Assembly (NCBI GenBank): GCA_026388155.1
Contig: JAPLKI010000013.1
Coordinates: 1 to 64,000, forward strand
Length of the DNA: 64,000 bases
Source: Elusimicrobiota bacterium
GTDB taxonomy: Bacteria > Elusimicrobiota > Elusimicrobia > Elusimicrobiales > UBA9959
Direction: 5' to 3'
In this document: in pieces, positions 8,830 through 54,064 of the stretch
Layout: each line of letters starts with the position of its first letter
Position numbering within the stretch: position 1 is the stretch's first letter
Position numbers and translations under genes: made by a program
Notes under the pieces: model-generated
What the model saw: only the letters and a program-made list of their open reading frames with translations
Database searches by the model: none
Told to the model about the DNA's origin: nothing

Positions 8830-8928
8830 TTAAGCGACAATATCTTTTTCAAAGATAAAGCGGCCTTGCCCTCAAAAAGCGGGGCTGTTTTGTTTTCGGT
8901 TTATTTTCCGCCTTTATTTATCTATATT

Positions 8929-11900
8929 ATGGATATGCCGGTCTCCCGCAATAATAAAACCGCCGCCCCGGTGCTTAAAAGCGACACGGAACTTAAGTTC
9001 CCGCACGCCCTTTTAATAAGCGCCTCGGCCGGCTCGGGCAAAACATACACGCTCGCGCAGCGCTATGTCCAGTTCCTGCTTTCCGAAAAGATCCCGGACC
9101 ACGACCTGGAAAATATTCTGGCCGTCACCTTCACGAATAACGCGGCCAAGGAAATGAAAACGCGCATTTTGGACTGGCTTAAGGAAATCGCCCTGAAGCC
9201 CGATTCCCAAAAGATGGACGAGACTCTGCGCCTGGTGGACATAAGCCGCGCCGATGCTCAAAAAAAAGCCGCGGCGCTGGTTGAGCGCGTAATAGACAAT
9301 TATTCCGACTTTCACATACAGACCATAGACAGTTTCATGACGCGCGTGATGACCGCCTCGGTAAACGAACTGGACCTGCCGCTGAACCCCGAGATCACCA
9401 TGTCCTACGACGACCTTATCGAGCTGGCCCTGTATTCCATGTTCTCGCGCCTTGGCACTGACAAGGATCTTAAAGCCAACATAGACACTTTCCTTAACAT
9501 CCTGCCTGAAAAGGGCGCTTATCCCTGGAATCCGGTCCTGCGCATACGCGACTATTTCGCCGCGTTCCTTAATGAAGAAGGCAAAACCAAGGGCGAGATA
9601 ATTTCCGACGACTCCGGCGCCCCCGGCAAGGCTCGCGAGCAGCTTTGGGGGGATATCCTCAGAGCCTGTGGGGAGCTTAAGAAAAAAATAAAGCCCGAAC
9701 TTATGAAGGGCAGCCTGGCCGCCGCCATTGAAAACAAGGACATTAACGCCTTCATTTCAAATTACAGCTTTGAAAACTGGCTTTTGAACGGTGGCAGGAA
9801 AAACCGCACTACCGGCGAATTTCCCGTCACGCCGGACACAAAAAAGGACCTGGAATATTTAAGCGAACTGGTGCGCCAACTGCTTATGGCCGACGCTTTA
9901 AGCTACTTTCACCCGTATACCTCCATTTATTCCCGTTTCAAGGCCGAACTCGAACGCGTTAAGCGCGGTAAAACCGATATCATCCACATAAACGATGTGA
10001 ACAAAAAGCTTTCCACCTATATAAACGCCAATGTCGCGCCGGATATTTACCTTAAACTGGGCGAGCGCATAAATCATTATCTTATAGACGAGTTCCAGGA
10101 CACCAACAAGCTGCAATGGGATAATTTCAAGCCGCTGATAGAAGAATCATTGTCCGGCCAGGGCTCGCTTTTTATGGTGGGCGACATCAAGCAGGCCATT
10201 TTCATGTTCCGCAACGCCGACTATAAAATAATGCGCGATTTGCTTACTTACGCCGAGGGCAAAAAGGACCATTGCGATAATTTAGAGCTTGCCTCGGTGG
10301 GCGGCAGGCTTGAACTTGTGAATTTGCCCGTTAACTACCGCAGCGGCGGCAAAATACTGGATTATGTGAACGCCGTTTTCAAGCACGACCTCAAAAACCG
10401 CAAAGAACTTGCAGGCGAAGATGTAACCGAGCTTACTTCCTACGAGCAGGCCCCGCAAAAAGAGCGCGCCGCCGCCGGTTTTGTCCAGACCATTTCCCTT
10501 GAGGCCGAAAACATAACCGACGACCAGGTGGAGCGTGGGGAACTGCTGAAAATAATAGAAAGCGCCCGCAAGCGCTATCCCTTGAACGAAATAGCCATTC
10601 TGGCAGCCAAGAACAAGCGCATAAAGCCCGTGGTGGAATGGCTTACCGCCGCCCATATCCCCGTGGCCTCGCTGAGTTCCCTGGATATACGGGAACGCCG
10701 GGTGATAGCGGAACTGCTTGCGCTGTTAAAATTCCTTGAAACCCCGGCAGACGATTCCGCCTTCGCCGCTTTTGTGACCGGTGAGATATTCCGCAAAGCC
10801 GCGAGCGTTGCGCGCTCGGAACTGTTGGAATTCATCTTTCAAACGCGCGCAAGTCACAGGTCGCAGGTCACAGGTCTCAAGTCACAGGGAATCTCCGCCA
10901 CTTACCACAATATCTTGTATCCACATTTCAAAGATCACCCAAAATATTCCAAATACTGGGCGCGATTTTTCGATGAATTGTTCCGTAAAACCGGCTATCT
11001 GCCGCTTTACGAACTGTGCGCGCTTATTTATTTAAAGTTCGAACTGTTCAGGCACTTCCCCGATGAATCCGCGTTCCTGTCCAAATTCCTTAATATAGTT
11101 TCCAAGGCCCAATCGGCCGGCATAACAGGCGTGCGCGGCTTCCTTGATTTTGCCCGGGGGGATGACGAAAGCCGCGGCACGGCTTTTTCCATAATCCTGC
11201 CCGATTACCTTGAAGCCGCGCGCGTAATGACCTTCCACAAGGCCAAGGGCCTGGGTTTCTCGGTGGTGATAAATTTAATATACGAAGACCGGGACCTAGC
11301 TGATGTCATGTATTTTGACGAAACGCCGGAAGGGATAAAGGTATATAAAATAATAAAGAGCGCGGCCGCCCAGCTGCCCGAACTGGGCCGGGTTTATGAA
11401 AGTAAGAAAACGGACGGCAATGTTCAGGACCTGAATCTGCTGTATGTTATTGAAACCCGCGCCAAGGAAGAGCTTTATAACCTGGTGATCAGGAAAAAGC
11501 GCAAAAATCCGTCCGAAACCGTCAAACCCACCGATCTTTTTGACAATTATCTGTCTGAGGACATGTTACAGGCGGCAGGTGACAGATTGCAGGTTAAAAA
11601 GGTAGACGCTACCTTTTTGAAGCCGCTGGAGCCGGAGCCGGTTTACAGCGCTAATTATGAGGTCGTCTCCGCCATACCCACTCTAAACGCCTATGCCGGC
11701 TCAAAAGAAGGCGAATTGGTCCACGACATCCTATCCCATATCATTACTCTGCCGTCTTTTCCGTTAAGTCACAGGTCACAAGGCACAAGTCACAAGTCAG
11801 ATTCTTCTTCTGGCGCTCAACTCCCGATTCTGGCCTCTATCCTTGAAGTCATCTATCAAGAATGCGCGCCGCGCTATCCGGTAAAGTTTAATGAGACTAA

Positions 11901-12210
11901 GATAGTAAAAACTCTGGCCGCTTTCCTGGCTCTGCCGGAAGTTAAGCCCTGGTTTGAGCCCAAAGAGGGCCGCATCATTAAAACCGAGACCGAATTTGCC
12001 GACAAAAACGGCAATCTCTCCCGCGTGGACCGGCTTATAATAGACAAAGATCTCATAACCATAATAGACTTCAAAACCGGCGCGGAAGACGCGGAAAAAT
12101 ACGCCGCGCAGTTAAAGCGTTACCTGGCACTTGCCGCTGAAATCTATAAGCTGCCCGTCAAAGGCCTGATAGCCTATGTGGATTTGGGGAAAGCAGTAGA
12201 GATTCACTGA
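8929..12210 (+). CDS. addA: AddA/RecB-like UvrD-family helicase-nuclease
   Basis: A 1,093-residue superfamily 1A helicase joined to a PD-(D/E)XK nuclease, for double-strand end resection with the AddB-like protein at 31157. Motifs in order: ASAGSGKTYT (Walker A, ~residue 30), VTFTNNAAKEM, HIQTIDSF, LIDEFQDTNKLQWDN (Walker B), GDIKQAIFMFR, LPVNYRSG, MTFHKAKGLGF, YVIETRAKEELY, and the nuclease DRLIIDKDLITIIDFKTG near the end. ATG 8929 or 8935 is preferred over the upstream ATG 8866, since TATATT (8923-8928) sits six bases before ATG 8935 and could be the -10 of a leaderless message. Two blocks of 7-nt repeats (10853-10887, 11768-11802) are read in frame in poorly conserved loops. Confidence 0.85.
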   Translation: MDMPVSRNNKTAAPVLKSDTELKFPHALLISASAGSGKTYTLAQRYVQFLLSEKIPDHDLENILAVTFTNNAAKEMKTRILDWLKEIALKPDSQKMDETLRLVDISRADAQKKAAALVERVIDNYSDFHIQTIDSFMTRVMTASVNELDLPLNPEITMSYDDLIELALYSMFSRLGTDKDLKANIDTFLNILPEKGAYPWNPVLRIRDYFAAFLNEEGKTKGEIISDDSGAPGKAREQLWGDILRACGELKKKIKPELMKGSLAAAIENKDINAFISNYSFENWLLNGGRKNRTTGEFPVTPDTKKDLEYLSELVRQLLMADALSYFHPYTSIYSRFKAELERVKRGKTDIIHINDVNKKLSTYINANVAPDIYLKLGERINHYLIDEFQDTNKLQWDNFKPLIEESLSGQGSLFMVGDIKQAIFMFRNADYKIMRDLLTYAEGKKDHCDNLELASVGGRLELVNLPVNYRSGGKILDYVNAVFKHDLKNRKELAGEDVTELTSYEQAPQKERAAAGFVQTISLEAENITDDQVERGELLKIIESARKRYPLNEIAILAAKNKRIKPVVEWLTAAHIPVASLSSLDIRERRVIAELLALLKFLETPADDSAFAAFVTGEIFRKAASVARSELLEFIFQTRASHRSQVTGLKSQGISATYHNILYPHFKDHPKYSKYWARFFDELFRKTGYLPLYELCALIYLKFELFRHFPDESAFLSKFLNIVSKAQSAGITGVRGFLDFARGDDESRGTAFSIILPDYLEAARVMTFHKAKGLGFSVVINLIYEDRDLADVMYFDETPEGIKVYKIIKSAAAQLPELGRVYESKKTDGNVQDLNLLYVIETRAKEELYNLVIRKKRKNPSETVKPTDLFDNYLSEDMLQAAGDRLQVKKVDATFLKPLEPEPVYSANYEVVSAIPTLNAYAGSKEGELVHDILSHIITLPSFPLSHRSQGTSHKSDSSSGAQLPILASILEVIYQECAPRYPVKFNETKIVKTLAAFLALPEVKPWFEPKEGRIIKTETEFADKNGNLSRVDRLIIDKDLITIIDFKTGAEDAEKYAAQLKRYLALAAEIYKLPVKGLIAYVDLGKAVEIH
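10853..10887 (+). repeat. Heptamer repeat block inside addA (5 units of GTCACAR)
   Basis: Five consecutive 7-nt units, GTCACAG, GTCGCAG, GTCACAG, GTCTCAA, GTCACAG, translated as part of HRSQVTGLKSQG without breaking the frame. Confidence 0.9.
11768..11802 (+). repeat. Second heptamer repeat block inside addA (5 units)
   Basis: Units GTCACAG, GTCACAA, GGCACAA, GTCACAA, GTCAGAT, read in frame as SHRSQGTSHKSD, just before the nuclease domain. Confidence 0.9.
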
Positions 12211-12306
12211 TCACTTACAAGCGATCATAATATTGTGTGCGAAAAAATAGGCAGACCTATAATTCCGGCGTTTTCAATACGACACTGCGCTGTCGCTTTG
12301 TCTTGC

Positions 12307-12312
12307 TATACT
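12307..12312 (+). promoter_or_regulatory. -10 element of probable leaderless recQ promoter
   Basis: TATACT lies six bases before ATG 12319, so transcription would start at or next to the start codon. No Shine-Dalgarno sequence is present and the -35 region is weak. Confidence 0.45.
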
Positions 12313-12318
12313 AGTTAA

Positions 12319-14307
12319 ATGAAACTTAAAGAAATTTTAAAAAAGCAGTGGGGCTACGATTCTTTCAAGCCGCTGCAGAAAGAGGCCATTGAAGCCGCTT
12401 TAGCCGGGCGGGACAGCCTTGTGGTTCTGCCCACCGGCGGCGGCAAAAGCCTGTGTTATCAGCTTCCGGCCGCCATGGGCAATAAGGGGCTGGTGCTCGT
12501 TGTCTCCCCGCTTATAGCCCTCATGGACGACCAGGTGGCCGCCGCGCGCGAGGCGGGCCTGATGGCTGACGCGATGCACTCAAATCTTGAAGCCAGCAAG
12601 CGCGGCGACACATACTGGCGGTTGTCCGAGGGTATCACAGAACTTTTATATGTAAGCCCTGAGCGCCTGCTCGCGGGCGACCTGCTTAAATATATTTCCG
12701 GGCGCGTTATTCTTGCCGCCGTGGACGAGGCGCACTGCGTTTCGCACTGGGGCCACGAATTCAGGCCCGAGTACCGCCGCCTTACCGAAGTTTTAGACCA
12801 GTTCCCCAAAGCCGCCCGCATGGCTTTAACCGCCACCGCCACGCCCGAAGTACAAAAAGACATCTGCGCCCAACTGGGCCTGCGTTCCCCGTTGCGGTTA
12901 GTGGGGCACCCGGACCGGCCGAACCTTGTTTATCGGGCCCTGCCGCGCCGCGACCAGCTTGCGCAGGTGCTTGAAATAGCGCGCCGATACGCGGGTTCGG
13001 GCGGTATTGTGTACGCCCAAACCCGCAAAGACGTGGAGCGCATCGCGGCGGGGCTAAAAAAAGAGGGTATCTCCTGCGCGCCATACCACGCGGGGCTTAA
13101 CGCCGAAGACAGGCGGCGCGCCCAGGACGATTTTGTGAACGAGCGGCTGGATGTTATTGTGGCCACTATCGCCTTCGGCATGGGTATAGACCGCTCCAAT
13201 GTGCGCTATGTGGCTCACGCTAACACTCCCCGCTCGGTGGAGCACTATCAGCAGGAATCGGGCCGCGCGGGCCGCGACGGCCTTCCCGCCGAATGCCTGC
13301 TTTTGTTTTCCGCTTCGGATCTGGCCCTTCACCGCTACCTGGCCAAAAAGGACGCCAACCTGCCTCCCGAAAGGGAACGCGCCCTTGAACGCCAGCTGCG
13401 CGAAATAGGCCGCTACGCTGTATCTCCCGTATGCCGCCACCGCTTGCTCACCGAACACTTCGGCGCGCCGTATCCTCCGGCTGAAACCGCCGCGGAAGAG
13501 TGTATTTTTGAGGAGGCTTTTTGTAAAGACGGGGATGCGGATATTTACCCGGAGCCGGGCAAGGCGGAGGGGTGTGCCCGAGCAGTGGTTCCCATCGAAG
13601 ATGGGACTGCGACAAAATACCCGGAGCCCGACAGGGCGGAGGGGTGCGGGGCGTGCGACGTGTGCCTTGGCGAGACAAAAAGCCTGCCGGACGACGAGGC
13701 CCTGCTTACCGCGAAGAAAGTTTTAAGCGCCGCCTGGCGCGCCGAAGGCCGCTATGGCACGGGCTACGTGGTCAATTTGCTGCTTGGCCGCGTAAACGAG
13801 CGCATGACCGAAAACGGCCACGACAAATTGCAGGTTTTCGGCCTGCTCAAAGATTCCGGCGAAGCCGCCGTCCGCTCGTGGATAGACCAGCTTATAGTGC
13901 AGGATTTTCTTGAGGTAACGGAAGAGGGGGAATATCCGCTGCTGCGCATCACCGAAGCCGGCCGGGGGCTTTGCAACGGGCGCGGCACGGTGCGCATGGG
14001 AATACCCGTCCCGCTTAAAGTTAAAGGCAAAAAGAAGGCCAAGGCCCTGAAAGGTAAAGCTGCCTGCGGATTGCCCGCCGACGAAGAGCTTTTCGAGCGT
14101 CTGCGCGCGTTACGCCGCAGTCTTGCCGATAAAGCCGGTATCCCTCCCTACGTAATATTTCACGACAGCGTGCTTATAGAAATGTCCGCCGCAAAGCCGC
14201 AAACCCTGGACGATCTGCGCGGCATAAAAGGCATAGGCGAGAAAAAACTTGAAAAATACGGCCAGCTCTTCCTTGATGCCATCTCCGGCCGCAAGGAATC
14301 GCCGTAA
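12319..14307 (+). CDS. recQ: ATP-dependent DNA helicase RecQ
   Basis: The 662-residue 3'-5' helicase has Walker A LPTGGGKSLCYQLPA, DEAHCVSHWGHEFRPEY, MALTATATPEVQ, AFGMGIDRSNVRYVAH and QESGRAGRDG, then a zinc-binding/RQC region and a C-terminal HRDC domain (~575-655). It resolves recombination intermediates and stalled forks. The zinc domain is odd: between the first Cys (CRHRLLTEHFG) and the pair CGACDVC lies an extra ~50-residue Pro/Glu/Gly stretch containing YPEPGKAEGC and YPEPDRAEGC, an in-frame duplication. The start is ATG 12319, which appears leaderless. It stands 108 bp after addA on the same strand. Confidence 0.95.
   Translation: MKLKEILKKQWGYDSFKPLQKEAIEAALAGRDSLVVLPTGGGKSLCYQLPAAMGNKGLVLVVSPLIALMDDQVAAAREAGLMADAMHSNLEASKRGDTYWRLSEGITELLYVSPERLLAGDLLKYISGRVILAAVDEAHCVSHWGHEFRPEYRRLTEVLDQFPKAARMALTATATPEVQKDICAQLGLRSPLRLVGHPDRPNLVYRALPRRDQLAQVLEIARRYAGSGGIVYAQTRKDVERIAAGLKKEGISCAPYHAGLNAEDRRRAQDDFVNERLDVIVATIAFGMGIDRSNVRYVAHANTPRSVEHYQQESGRAGRDGLPAECLLLFSASDLALHRYLAKKDANLPPERERALERQLREIGRYAVSPVCRHRLLTEHFGAPYPPAETAAEECIFEEAFCKDGDADIYPEPGKAEGCARAVVPIEDGTATKYPEPDRAEGCGACDVCLGETKSLPDDEALLTAKKVLSAAWRAEGRYGTGYVVNLLLGRVNERMTENGHDKLQVFGLLKDSGEAAVRSWIDQLIVQDFLEVTEEGEYPLLRITEAGRGLCNGRGTVRMGIPVPLKVKGKKKAKALKGKAACGLPADEELFERLRALRRSLADKAGIPPYVIFHDSVLIEMSAAKPQTLDDLRGIKGIGEKKLEKYGQLFLDAISGRKESP
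13546..13648 (+). repeat. In-frame direct repeat and hairpin inserted in recQ zinc domain
   Basis: Two ~31-bp copies at 13546-13576 and 13618-13648, 72 bp apart, flank a hairpin GCAGT..CCCATC gaa GATGGG ACTGC (13582-13610). The whole insert keeps the reading frame. Confidence 0.8.
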
Positions 14308-15823: not shown

Positions 15824-15852
15824 TTGACAAGTCAACATCGGCCTGCTATACT
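15824..15852 (+). promoter_or_regulatory. Consensus sigma-70 promoter
   Basis: TTGACA (15824-15829), 17-bp spacer, TATACT (15847-15852). The -35 lies in TTGACAAGTCAA, an inverted repeat that also occurs at the clostripain promoter (53909). Confidence 0.8.
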
Positions 15853-15857
15853 CGTTA

Positions 15858-16232
15858 TGCAGTCTTGTTCTTTTAAAAGCGCCGTCGGTGAAGTTGAGAT
15901 GTTCTTGGTAGTCCGTTTCCGGTTGCGGGGCTTCGGCCCGCTCCCTCGGCGCGGTTTCCCCCGGTTCGCTGCCAGTGTTTGAGCGGTGTGTTTTCGGTGT
16001 CGGCGGCGCGTTCCGCGGGATGTTTCCCTGGTCCGTCTCCCCCACCTTGGTGGGGCGCGGTTTGCCGGGGTCCTGGTTCGGCGGCCCGCCATCGGCGGTC
16101 CTGCTCCCGGGTGGGTGTTCCGGTCGGCGCGTTTAGCGCCATCAGTTTCCGGTCCGCTCCTTAACAGTGTCGGCATAAGTGGTCTGGCCCGTGTGCCAAT
16201 TGAAGAGCCCCCGACCTCGGGGGCTCTCAATT
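15858..16232 (+). ncRNA. Candidate structured non-coding RNA, ~370 nt, no known family
   Basis: A consensus promoter ends at 15852 and a strong terminator-type hairpin (AGAGCCCCCGA / TCGGGGGCTCT) closes at 16227. In between, no convincing coding sequence is seen, but hairpins abound: a UUCG-capped GCGGGGC/GCCCGC stem near 15924, CCCCACC tt GGTGGGG near 16040, and GGCGCG ttta GCGCC near 16128. I found none of the marker sequences of RNase P RNA, tmRNA, SRP RNA or 6S RNA on either strand. A short leaderless reading frame (ATG 15857, 41 codons) exists but looks unconvincing. The size and isolation argue for an abundant housekeeping-like or regulatory RNA. Confidence 0.5.
16204..16232 (+). terminator. 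Rho-independent terminator of the candidate ncRNA
   Basis: Eleven-base inverted repeat AGAGCCCCCGA/TCGGGGGCTCT followed by a short CAATTTAT tract. Confidence 0.7.
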
Positions 16233-16702: not shown

Positions 16703-17503
16703 GTGCAAAATATTTTAACAGGCAAAAAAACCATCATAGGAATGATACACGTGCAGGCCCTGCCTGGCACTCCCCGCTACGAAGGGAACTTCGCCGCGGT
16801 CAGACAAAAAGCCCTGCTTGAAGCGCGGATATACAGGGACGCCGGCGTGGATATGATAGCGATAGAAAACATGCACGACGTTCCGTACCTTAACCGCGCC
16901 GCCGGGCACGAAATAACCGCCGCCATGGCCGTTATCGGCAGCGAGGTCAAAAGAGCGGCAGGCCTGCCCTGCGGCATTCAGATACTTGCCGGCGGCAACA
17001 TTCAGGCGCTCGCGGCGGCGTCAGCCGCGGGACTTGATTTTATCAGGGCCGAGGGTTTTATTTTCGCCCACGTGGCGGATGAGGGGACGATTAACTCGGA
17101 CGCGGGCGAGCTGCTGCGCTACCGCAAGAGGATAGGCGCGGAAAAAATAAATATTTTTACGGACATCAAAAAGAAGCACTCCTCCCACGCCATAACCGCC
17201 GACGTCTCCATCGCCGAAACCGCGAGGGCGGCGGAATTTTTCATGAGCGACGCCGTGATAGTGACCGGAGAGCGCACAGGGGCGGAGGCATCGCTTGCGG
17301 AGGTGCGCGCCGTGAAAGCCTCGGTGGCTATACCGGTTCTGGTAGGCTCCGGAGTGACCATAGACAATGTGGAAAAATATCTCAAGGCCGCCGACGCGCT
17401 TATAGTGGGTTCGCATTTCAAAAAAGACGGGAAGTGGCGCAACGCCCTTGACCCGAAGCGGGTGGCGGCTTTCATGAAAAAAACGGCCGCGCTCAGAAAA
17501 TAA
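16703..17503 (+). CDS. BtpA/SgcQ-family TIM-barrel protein
   Basis: 266 residues, starting at GTG 16703 with AAGGAG six bases ahead. The sequence GMIHVQALPGTPRYEG at the N-terminus, DAGVDMIAIENMHDVPY, ILAGGNIQALAAASAAGLDFIRAEGF and PVLVGSGVTIDNVEKYL... are typical of the BtpA/SgcQ family, a phosphate-binding TIM barrel. BtpA was first linked to photosystem I stability, and most bacterial members have no proven reaction. Here it is the first gene of an operon with a PfkB kinase (1 bp downstream) and PsuG, which suggests a step in pseudouridine or ribose-phosphate breakdown. That link is inference. Confidence 0.85.
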   Translation: MQNILTGKKTIIGMIHVQALPGTPRYEGNFAAVRQKALLEARIYRDAGVDMIAIENMHDVPYLNRAAGHEITAAMAVIGSEVKRAAGLPCGIQILAGGNIQALAAASAAGLDFIRAEGFIFAHVADEGTINSDAGELLRYRKRIGAEKINIFTDIKKKHSSHAITADVSIAETARAAEFFMSDAVIVTGERTGAEASLAEVRAVKASVAIPVLVGSGVTIDNVEKYLKAADALIVGSHFKKDGKWRNALDPKRVAAFMKKTAALRK

Positions 17504-17504
17504 A

Positions 17505-18398
17505 ATGAAAATAGCGGTTTTTGGAGGCTGCAATTTCGATATCACCGTCCGCCCGCGCGGCGCGGAGAGGGCCCGCACTTCCATCGCGGCCGAAGTGCGT
17601 TTCAGCGCCGGCGGCGTGGGGGCGAACATCGCCGCCAATCTCGCAAAGCTCGGGTGCCGGACAACGCTGGTCACGCCGCTGGGCAAAGACCAGTGGGGAG
17701 ATTATCTTAAAGCCGATCTGCGCCGGCTGGGCGTTGCCGCCAAAATAATTCCGTCCGCAAAGACCGGGATATACGTGGCCGTCCTGAACCCGGAAGGCGC
17801 TTTGGCGGCCGGTTTCAGCGACATGGCGGCCGAAAAGGTCGCTCCAAAAGATATAGACGCTTTGCGTCTTGACCTCGCGTCTTTCGACGCGGCGGTGATA
17901 GACGCGAATTTCAGCGCCGCGACAATAAATCATCTCGCCCGGCTGTGCGGGCGGACCGGGCTCAGGTACGCTTTGGAGCCCGTTTCGGACGAAAAATCGC
18001 TGAGGCTTGCGGGGGCTTTGGCCGGGTGCGAATTCGTCAAGCCCAACATGTCGGAGGCGGGGCTGCTCGCAGGGCAAAGCTGCGGCACAGCCGCGCAGGC
18101 AAAAAAATGCGCGCTGCGAATAGCGGAGCGCGGGGCGAAGAATGTGGCGGTGTCGCTCGGCTCCGGCGGCATTTATGTGCTGTCGCCCGGCTTTGAAAAA
18201 CATTTCGCGGCGCCGAAGGTCAGGTCGGCGAACGTGACCGGTGCGGGGGACGCGCTTTTTGCTGCTTTTTATCTCGGCCTGCTCAAAGGGTTTTCCCCGC
18301 AGCGTTGCGCCCGAGCGGGCCTTGTTGCCGCGGCCCTCACCTGCCGGAGCGAAGCGTCGGTGAGCGGGGCCGTTTCGGCGGCTATTTTTAACGCGTGA
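17505..18398 (+). CDS. psuK: PfkB-family sugar/nucleoside kinase, probable pseudouridine kinase
   Basis: A 297-residue ribokinase-type kinase with the N-terminal GGCNFDITVRP, the glycine-rich FSAGGVGANIAANLAKLG, and the C-terminal anion-hole/catalytic motif NVTGAGDALFAAF. Directly upstream of psuG, it would phosphorylate pseudouridine to pseudouridine 5'-phosphate, the substrate of PsuG. Specificity is inferred from neighbours; other PfkB substrates remain possible. The start ATG 17505 is one base after the previous stop, which suggests coupled translation. Confidence 0.75.
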   Translation: MKIAVFGGCNFDITVRPRGAERARTSIAAEVRFSAGGVGANIAANLAKLGCRTTLVTPLGKDQWGDYLKADLRRLGVAAKIIPSAKTGIYVAVLNPEGALAAGFSDMAAEKVAPKDIDALRLDLASFDAAVIDANFSAATINHLARLCGRTGLRYALEPVSDEKSLRLAGALAGCEFVKPNMSEAGLLAGQSCGTAAQAKKCALRIAERGAKNVAVSLGSGGIYVLSPGFEKHFAAPKVRSANVTGAGDALFAAFYLGLLKGFSPQRCARAGLVAAALTCRSEASVSGAVSAAIFNA

Positions 18399-18452
18399 CC
18401 GCTCTGCCCCCGGAACGGCGCGCGGCGCGGTCCTTTTTTAAACGGAGAATAT

Positions 18453-19370
18453 ATGGACCTTGAAAAATATTTATCCCTTGGCGAGGAAGTCCGTTCCGCC
18501 AGGCAAAACGGCCGGCCGCTCGTCGCGCTTGAGTCCACTATAATAACTCACGGTATGACGTACCCTGAGAATGTAAAGACGGCGCTGGAAGTTGAAAGCA
18601 TAGTCCGCGCGCGCGGCGCGATTCCGGCAACTATCGCCCTCCTGAACGGGAAAATAGTGGCGGGGCTTTCCCGGGCGGAAATAGACGAGCTGGGAAAAAT
18701 GGGGCAGAAAGTCGTGAAGGTCTCCCGCCGGGATATTCCCGCCGTGCTTGCCAAAAAGATACCCGGCGCAACCACGGTGGCGGGGACGATGATAGCCGCG
18801 CGGCTCGCGGGGATAGAGGTTTTTGCCACCGGCGGAATAGGCGGGGCGCACCGCGGCGTGCAGAGCACCTTCGACATTTCGGCCGATCTTTCGGAACTTG
18901 CCCGCACCAATGTGGCCGTGGTCTGCGCCGGCGCGAAGGCTATACTGGATATCGGATTGACGCTCGAGATACTGGAAACGCTGGGCGTGCCGGTTATTTC
19001 TTACCGCACCGACTATTTTCCGGCTTTTTATACAAGGTCGTCGGGATTCAAAACCGAATGCCGTTTCGACGACCCCGCCGAGATCGCCCGTGCGCTCAGG
19101 TGCAAATGGGAGCTTGGGCTTTCGGGAGGCGCCGTGATAGCGAACCCGGTACCGGCCGAATTTGAAGCCGATGCGGCTATGACAGAGAACGCTATCTCGC
19201 TTGCGCTCGACGAGGCCGGCAGGCTCGGTATAACCGGGAAACGGATAACGCCGTATCTCCTTGAAAAGATAGCGCAGGTTACCGGCGGAAAATCGCTGGC
19301 GGCAAATATCGCTCTTATAAAGAACAACGCCTCGCTGGCGGCGGAGATAGCCTGCGGCCTGCTGTCGTAA
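18453..19370 (+). CDS. psuG: Pseudouridine-5'-phosphate glycosidase
   Basis: This 305-residue protein matches PsuG along its whole length: ALESTIITHGMTYPEN, GATTVAGTMIAARLAGIEVFATGG, GGAHRGVQSTFDISADLSEL, VVCAGAKAILDIGLTLE and ISYRTDYFPAFYTRSSG. It splits pseudouridine 5'-phosphate into uracil and ribose 5-phosphate and thus ends the pathway begun by the kinase upstream. A purine-rich GGAG precedes ATG 18453, and two hairpin terminators follow. A uracil permease of the UraA type lies at 60292. Confidence 0.93.
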   Translation: MDLEKYLSLGEEVRSARQNGRPLVALESTIITHGMTYPENVKTALEVESIVRARGAIPATIALLNGKIVAGLSRAEIDELGKMGQKVVKVSRRDIPAVLAKKIPGATTVAGTMIAARLAGIEVFATGGIGGAHRGVQSTFDISADLSELARTNVAVVCAGAKAILDIGLTLEILETLGVPVISYRTDYFPAFYTRSSGFKTECRFDDPAEIARALRCKWELGLSGGAVIANPVPAEFEADAAMTENAISLALDEAGRLGITGKRITPYLLEKIAQVTGGKSLAANIALIKNNASLAAEIACGLLS

Positions 19371-53908: not shown

Positions 53909-53936
53909 TTGACAAGTCAAGATATACTGCTATACT
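53909..53936 (+). promoter_or_regulatory. Sigma-70 promoter of the clostripain operon
   Basis: TTGACA (53909-53914), 16-bp spacer, TATACT (53931-53936). The upstream CCCCCTTGACAAGTCAA is identical to that at the ncRNA promoter (15821-15835). The 120-nt leader contains ATAGGTCTAAAGGCCTAT (53981-53998), an interrupted dyad. Confidence 0.8.
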
Positions 53937-54064
53937 ATTTATTGGACGCCGTCGATGAACAAGAAACAATTTTTGCGGGTATAGGTCTAAAGGCCTATTG
54001 TCCCATGGGGCTTAAGACCTTTGATAAAAGTCAAGCTATGTGCAAGAATATCCTAGAGGAAGTT

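Follow-up and report, generated by a model that had tools for sequence, protein, structure and literature searches.

Positions 15824-16232 of the window, the whole stretch of 64,000 nucleotides that was analyzed, are a complete, stand-alone, non-coding RNA gene that had not been catalogued before. The earlier note had proposed that this region is a candidate new structured RNA with its own promoter and terminator, and the proposal is supported by the lack of any Rfam match, by covariation and by the absence of a conserved protein. That note missed four properties of the RNA: it is depleted in adenine, it carries a boxA-like 5' element, it exists in multiple copies and it is restricted to one taxonomic family. 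Its status as a new RNA class is strongly supported, while its description as a boxA RNA is moderately supported. No earlier description of the RNA was found in the literature searched, which did not include most subscription papers.

The gene and its homologues

The promoter predicted in the earlier note, TTGACA-17-TATACT, is present at 15824-15852 on the forward strand (TTGACAAGTCAA-N8-TGCTATACT). It matches 11 of the 12 consensus positions, has a TG ahead of the -10 element and is the best of four promoter-like sites in 3 kb, the mean in shuffled sequences being 1.6 sites. A near-palindrome (TTGAC-AA-GTCAA) overlaps the -35 element. No transcription data are available, and the start at 15858 is inferred from the position of the -10 element, 6-7 nt upstream; the putative transcript is ~370 nt long (15858-16232, forward strand). 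Directly past the start site, a base-frequency matrix reveals a conserved GYAGTC (15859-15864, forward strand). The region between promoter and terminator spans ~370 nt and has 65% GC. The terminator had also been correctly recognized: it is intrinsic, lies at 16204-16227 on the forward strand (AGAGCCCCCG-ACCT-CGGGGGCTCT) and consists of a 10-pair stem, with 8 G-C pairs, followed by CAATTTATAT. The same stem type occurs in 72 of the 78 pattern matches described below. Tandem or repeated terminator halves follow some copies (L042 3900-4260, L071 4540-4600), as if strong termination were needed.

The earlier note saw no plausible coding capacity here, and the homologues agree. Open reading frames do exist mechanically in the region, for instance one of 132 aa on the minus strand, but they reflect base composition, since shuffled copies are about as open. 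Among the indels that separate close homologues, 260 of 318 are not multiples of 3. They break every reading frame, so the gene is not coding, and no conserved protein was found. A minus-strand protein corresponding to the 132-aa frame is ruled out by the same indel pattern and by the shuffles.

The gene's own terminator, its varying neighbours and their mixed orientations also rule out an operon leader or a riboswitch. The 108 neighbouring genes represent 64 Pfam families, their orientations are mixed and no neighbour is constant. The commonest one, RecQ, accounts for just 5 of the 108, partly because of one shared ancestral position, and the occurrence of AddA, RecQ and RmuC beside copies of the RNA was not taken as a functional link to DNA repair. 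In the window, an AddA-like helicase-nuclease and RecQ are encoded upstream of the RNA (8866-14307), and a downstream operon (16703-19370) encodes BtpA, a PfkB kinase and a pseudouridine phosphate glycosidase-like (Indigoidine_A) protein. In several genomes, RecQ is the direct neighbour of the RNA, and several other copies have AddA/AddB-like genes in their vicinity.

The RNA is restricted to one family of Elusimicrobiota, with several diverged copies per genome. A second copy (contig C21:95691-95970) came up when the source genome was searched at the DNA level. Homologues were detected in 19 of the 61 genomes searched, all from the same Elusimicrobiota family, and none was detected in the sister family in that search. 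When one genome per species (84,980 species) was scanned for the promoter and first transcribed box, 71 exact loci were recovered; all those bearing a lineage name are assigned to Elusimicrobia, Elusimicrobiales or Elusimicrobiota. A sequence model of the promoter and leader was also run against 235 genomes of the class. Strong matches (E below 1e-7) were confined to the RNA's own family, most genomes of which carry it, with 1-5 copies per genome among the matches listed. The 176 class genomes outside the family gave no strong match, the best one (2.5e-5) spanning the promoter part only. Two copies in one genome (G138:C9:63310 and 64138) are only ~830 bases apart, and copies lie within 15-50 kb of one another in other genomes. 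No similarity to phages was found. A viral contig that matched the promoter pattern (L154) is not a member of the family, its downstream sequence having 28% A.

The pattern search returned 78 distinct matches, L154 among them; both promoter and terminator were found in 72 of them, with lengths of 229-583 nt. The conservation of the promoter and box in this set is partly due to construction, since the search pattern demanded both, including the GYAGT part of GYAGTC. Nevertheless, a set of 34 homologues found by BLAST shows this conservation independently of the pattern: the first 12 positions of the promoter are invariant except for one, which is conserved in at least 90%, and GYAGT is conserved as well. 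Several of these homologues were matched through the RNA body alone and have the promoter nonetheless. It could still be argued that the region is a GC-rich intergenic repeat in which promoter-like and terminator-like sequences arose by chance, an idea with which its unexceptional fold energy (see below) would be compatible. Yet the promoter, the box, the helices and the terminator are conserved in 72 homologues at unrelated loci, and this explanation can be considered already refuted.

The 12-mer TTGACAAGTCAA occurs at five sites in the genome, namely at the two RNA copies and ahead of three apparent protein genes. At 53909-53936 of the window, this promoter precedes a protein gene whose product would begin with a signal-peptide-like segment and appears clostripain-like by eye. 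As the 12-mer is found at both RNA and protein genes, the near-palindrome could function as an operator or reflect a favoured promoter type. The 5' leader of the clostripain-like gene contains a hairpin between promoter and start codon (GGTCTAAAGGCC...GGGGCTTAAGACC, 53984-54019) that was not seen elsewhere among the loci examined.

Structure and base composition

The several GC-rich hairpins reported in the earlier note are found in the predicted fold of the window copy, and the UUCG-capped one has its counterpart in a cUUCGg loop offered by the sequence at 15931-15936. The 5' half contains the P1 domain (15879-15952, forward strand), in which GCGCCG (15879-15884) pairs with CGGCGC (15947-15952). 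P1 encloses a variable insert and the hairpin with the cUUCGg loop (GCGGGG-CUUCG-GCCCGC, 15925-15941, forward strand), the latter predicted from sequence and fold. In an alignment of 24 homologues, pairing in the P1 helix reaches 93.5%, against 86.1% in shuffled alignments, and both sides change in 4 of its 7 pairs; the covariation score (0.314 against 0.156 in shuffles) was not reached by any of 500 shuffles. The arms occur as GCGCCG/CGGCGC, GCACCG/CGGTGC, GAGCCT/AGGCTC, GCTCCG/CGGAGC and GCGTCG/CGACGC. A looser test swapping the arms gave 12/5000, and its anchor-only version misplaced the anchors in many rows, but the clean alignment of 24 homologues settles the P1 pairing.

The 3' half contains four further hairpins, all on the forward strand. 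The long hairpin A (16026-16070), in the 3' core, is made up of three helices (16026-16032/16064-16070, 16033-16036/16057-16060 and 16040-16045/16050-16055) with pairing probabilities of 0.83-0.99 where tested, and 6 of its 17 pairs show changes on both sides. Hairpin B (16072-16111), a CCUGG/CCCGG stem with an inner hairpin, and hairpin C (16113-16159), which holds the conserved GGGUGUUCCGG, rest on the alignment and the ensemble; B has no double changes and its inner stem is just 75.5% paired in the alignment. The last hairpin, UGGC-CCGUGU-GCCA (16185-16198), is 95.5% paired with one compensatory row, but the ensemble computed for the window copy alone does not favour it. The 3' half was evaluated using a 40-pair model on 22 window-type homologues aligned by MAFFT without structural information. 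In this model, 94.3% of the cells are paired, against 91.3% in shuffles and at most 53% with slid partners. The covariation score is 0.152, against 0.103 in shuffles; none of 500 shuffles reached it and 8 pairs change on both sides. Folding the window copy to minimum energy without constraints also yields the helices of P1 and of the 3' half.

Other approaches were less informative. An R-scape-like test of all column pairs, under-powered with 22 sequences, found no pair at E<0.05, the best one (E 0.16) being located inside hairpin A. With its 64 members taken together, the main cluster aligned poorly across subtypes, and a joint fold failed. The folding energy of the window copy has a z of -1.55 with the terminator and -0.03 without it, and the mean z over 36 genes without terminator (+1.1) is no better than that of shuffled sequences. 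Since the fold energy is unexceptional, the structure claim rests on conservation and covariation. The earlier note had stated that a lack of stem conservation would refute its candidate; the stems of P1 and of the 3'-half hairpins are kept through compensatory changes, and the interpretation as a structured non-coding RNA is supported by them. A G-quadruplex reading was dropped, as the motif is in none of the genes of the RNA family.

The RNA body, taken here as the transcript without its leader (25 nt) and without the last 45 nt ahead of the terminator, consists of 4.0% A, 33% C, 40% G and 23% U (19,175 nt from 72 genes). The few A are kept at both ends, where they make up 15% of the leader and 18% of the last 45 nt. 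By comparison, A represents 23.5% of the RNase P RNA of the source genome and ~25.6% of the 16S of its relatives. The same loci supplied 8,055 control windows of 250 nt; A or T is at or below 5% in only 2 of them, and both of these overlap one unlisted copy of the RNA (G028:C19 match). In the predicted folds, A makes up 6% and U 46% of the unpaired bases, whereas ~50% of those of RNase P RNA and 16S are A. One possibility is that the low A is a mutational footprint on an ordinary small RNA, for example through strand-specific A-to-G changes in a strongly transcribed region. The excess of G over C in the body and the restriction of the effect to the transcribed stretch would both be expected in that case. 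Nevertheless, T is hardly depleted and the surplus of G falls short of the deficit in A. In addition, A persists at defined positions (the leader and the last 45 nt), and the 16S and RNase P RNA of this lineage do not have low A. A mutational origin seems unlikely, although it retains some plausibility.

The boxA-like element

The sequence of the rRNA boxA, the antitermination site of NusB/S10, is found in the conserved 5' box TGNTCTYTNNAA. In the window copy, the boxA-like element TGTTCTTTTAAAA lies at 15866-15878 on the forward strand, as judged from the sequence signature of a NusB/S10 site and the base-frequency matrix. The base frequencies of the box in the family are T.87 G.96 [A/C/T] T.95 C.94 T.99 [T/C] T.96. 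The exact core TG[ACT]TCT[CT]T is found in 64 of the 78 pattern matches, and a few homologues (e.g., L074 and L077) have weak boxes. The Y position of the box is often occupied by A, as in some leaders of the first rrn promoter (P1) of this lineage. The rrn leader of the source genome has TTTGTTCTCTAAAA ~264 nt ahead of the 16S (L192/L194), as is the case in most relatives, and TTTG[CT]TCTCTNNAA is located at ~-155 to -280 before the 16S in most rrn leaders examined. A second rrn box, [CT]GATCTTTNAAA, follows the P1 promoter in L198, L199 and L206. The rrn operons examined (L192, L198-L216) mostly have two promoters, with a boxA-like box after each of them in several genomes; in about ten genomes there is a break in the 16S match at model position 874, perhaps due to a masked base or an insertion.

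The gamma-proteobacterial boxA consensus is GYTCTTTAANA, and the binding of NusB-S10 at boxA promotes rRNA folding and can block Rho termination (PMC5725501). Given the match between the box and the rRNA boxA and this role of NusB-S10, the recruitment of the Nus complex by these RNAs is a strong inference, but it has not been shown, the binding of NusB/S10 being argued from sequence alone. The rrn leader boxA (NusB/NusE-S10) and the box described here share TG[ACT]TCT[CT]TNNAA and a place close to the 5' end of a structured RNA that is not translated. In contrast to the rrn leaders, the box of the new RNA is ~8-10 nt from the inferred start and belongs to a stand-alone RNA of 230-580 nt that has its own terminator and no rRNA operon. 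Other boxA sequences outside rRNA are known from E. coli suhB and further transcripts (PMC5725501), but these are mRNA leaders; according to its authors, that boxA survey left out non-coding RNAs. The presence of the box raises the question of whether the RNA is a decoy that titrates NusB/S10 (or S10 itself) and tunes rRNA synthesis, with a body that only stabilizes it. The leader is, along with the terminator, the best conserved part of the transcript, and both the near-consensus promoter and the several copies per genome would suit such a role. Yet the conserved helices and motifs of the body extend over ~300 nt and exceed the needs of a stabilizer, which makes a decoy rather improbable.

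Known RNA classes and possible function

No Rfam 15 family is above its gathering score in the window, and a search at E<=10 gave nothing credible in the region. The best sub-threshold match, Phe_leader (27.1 bits against a cut-off of 55), concerns the terminator stem on the opposite strand. The earlier note had set aside RNase P RNA, tmRNA, 6S RNA and SRP RNA for want of their marker sequences, and this was borne out. RNase P RNA (RF00010) and tmRNA (RF00023) are found elsewhere in the source genome (C10). There is no match to 6S RNA (RF00013), and the fold has several separate hairpins, not a single rod. There is no match to SRP RNA either (RF00169 or RF01854), nor was a GNRA-capped SRP helix seen. 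The Rfam models found no 6S RNA in 37 genomes and no small or large SRP RNA in 13 genomes of Elusimicrobiota, from this family or its sister, controls being detected in both cases; the SRP RNA of Elusimicrobiota may be divergent from the Rfam models. The SRP and 6S roles are formally vacant, since the models find neither RNA in any Elusimicrobiota tested, and a divergent member of a housekeeping class could be imagined. However, the sister family also lacks SRP and 6S matches and does not have the new RNA, which is, moreover, multi-copy. Together with the RNase P RNA and tmRNA present elsewhere and the missing SRP helix and 6S-like rod, this leaves the known housekeeping RNAs excluded or very unlikely.

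Similarities with other RNAs are only general. Like 6S RNA, the new RNA is stand-alone, structured and without coding capacity, but it is longer, multi-copy and unmatched in Rfam, and it does not form a single rod with a central bubble. OLE, GOLLD, ROOL and raiA are orphan large structured bacterial RNAs. The new RNA is likewise long, conserved and non-coding, with neighbours that give no obvious function, but it is nearly A-free and has no covariance-model match. CsrB and RsmY are protein sponge RNAs with repeated GGA. They share with the new RNA their stand-alone nature and a short motif repeated in a variable region, but the repeat is here GCGGU. GGA is not enriched in the genes (78 seen against 90 expected from shuffles), while GCGGT is present 5.9 times per gene (424 seen against 111 in shuffles), and by eye most of these motifs lie in the variable insert of P1. 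Individual genes have between 0 and 14 copies of GCGGT, a spread that makes a sponge less convincing.

Alternatively, the variable insert could base-pair with mRNAs, and the RNA would be an antisense sRNA. The terminator and the size are compatible with this, and so are the variable insert itself and the several diverged copies per genome. Nevertheless, a GC-rich body that has almost no A and is mostly paired in the predicted fold offers little single-stranded seed for ordinary mRNAs; an antisense function is unlikely.

The explanation that seems probable, without being certain, is that these genes encode structured RNAs of a new class, which are stand-alone and act in trans, are transcribed by an rRNA-type, Nus-modified polymerase, are stable and serve as a scaffold or sponge. 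Transcription would initiate strongly at the near-consensus promoter. Once the 5' end emerges, NusB-S10 would bind the box and convert the polymerase into an rRNA-type complex, a step inferred from the boxA-Nus mechanism. This complex would carry the untranslated GC-rich transcript past Rho and aid its folding into P1 and the 3' hairpins, until the strong intrinsic terminator ends transcription. It is a weaker inference that the finished RNA would be stable and abundant and act in trans, and equally that it would serve an RNA-binding protein as scaffold or sponge by means of the GCGGU repeats of the variable insert. The lack of A may remove UA/CA steps and A-rich single strands open to nucleases and hydrolysis. 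With the molecular target unidentified, the favoured guess is a scaffold or sponge that binds a protein and carries repeated GCGGU. The more complete proposal, that of a new class of large RNAs with a G/C/U fold, nearly devoid of the fourth base and with loops rich in U and not in A, made by a Nus-modified polymerase, present in multiple copies in one family and acting in trans, has about an even chance of being correct.

Structured RNAs usually put A in loops and tertiary contacts. A natural, conserved RNA that folds almost without A would provide a test of ideas on the bases that an RNA fold requires. The boxA-like site would bring a stand-alone non-coding RNA, a kind of transcript outside the survey mentioned above (PMC5725501), within the reach of Nus-modified transcription. 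Finally, for the Elusimicrobiota, a phylum on whose RNA biology nothing was found in the literature searched, this RNA offers a defined target.
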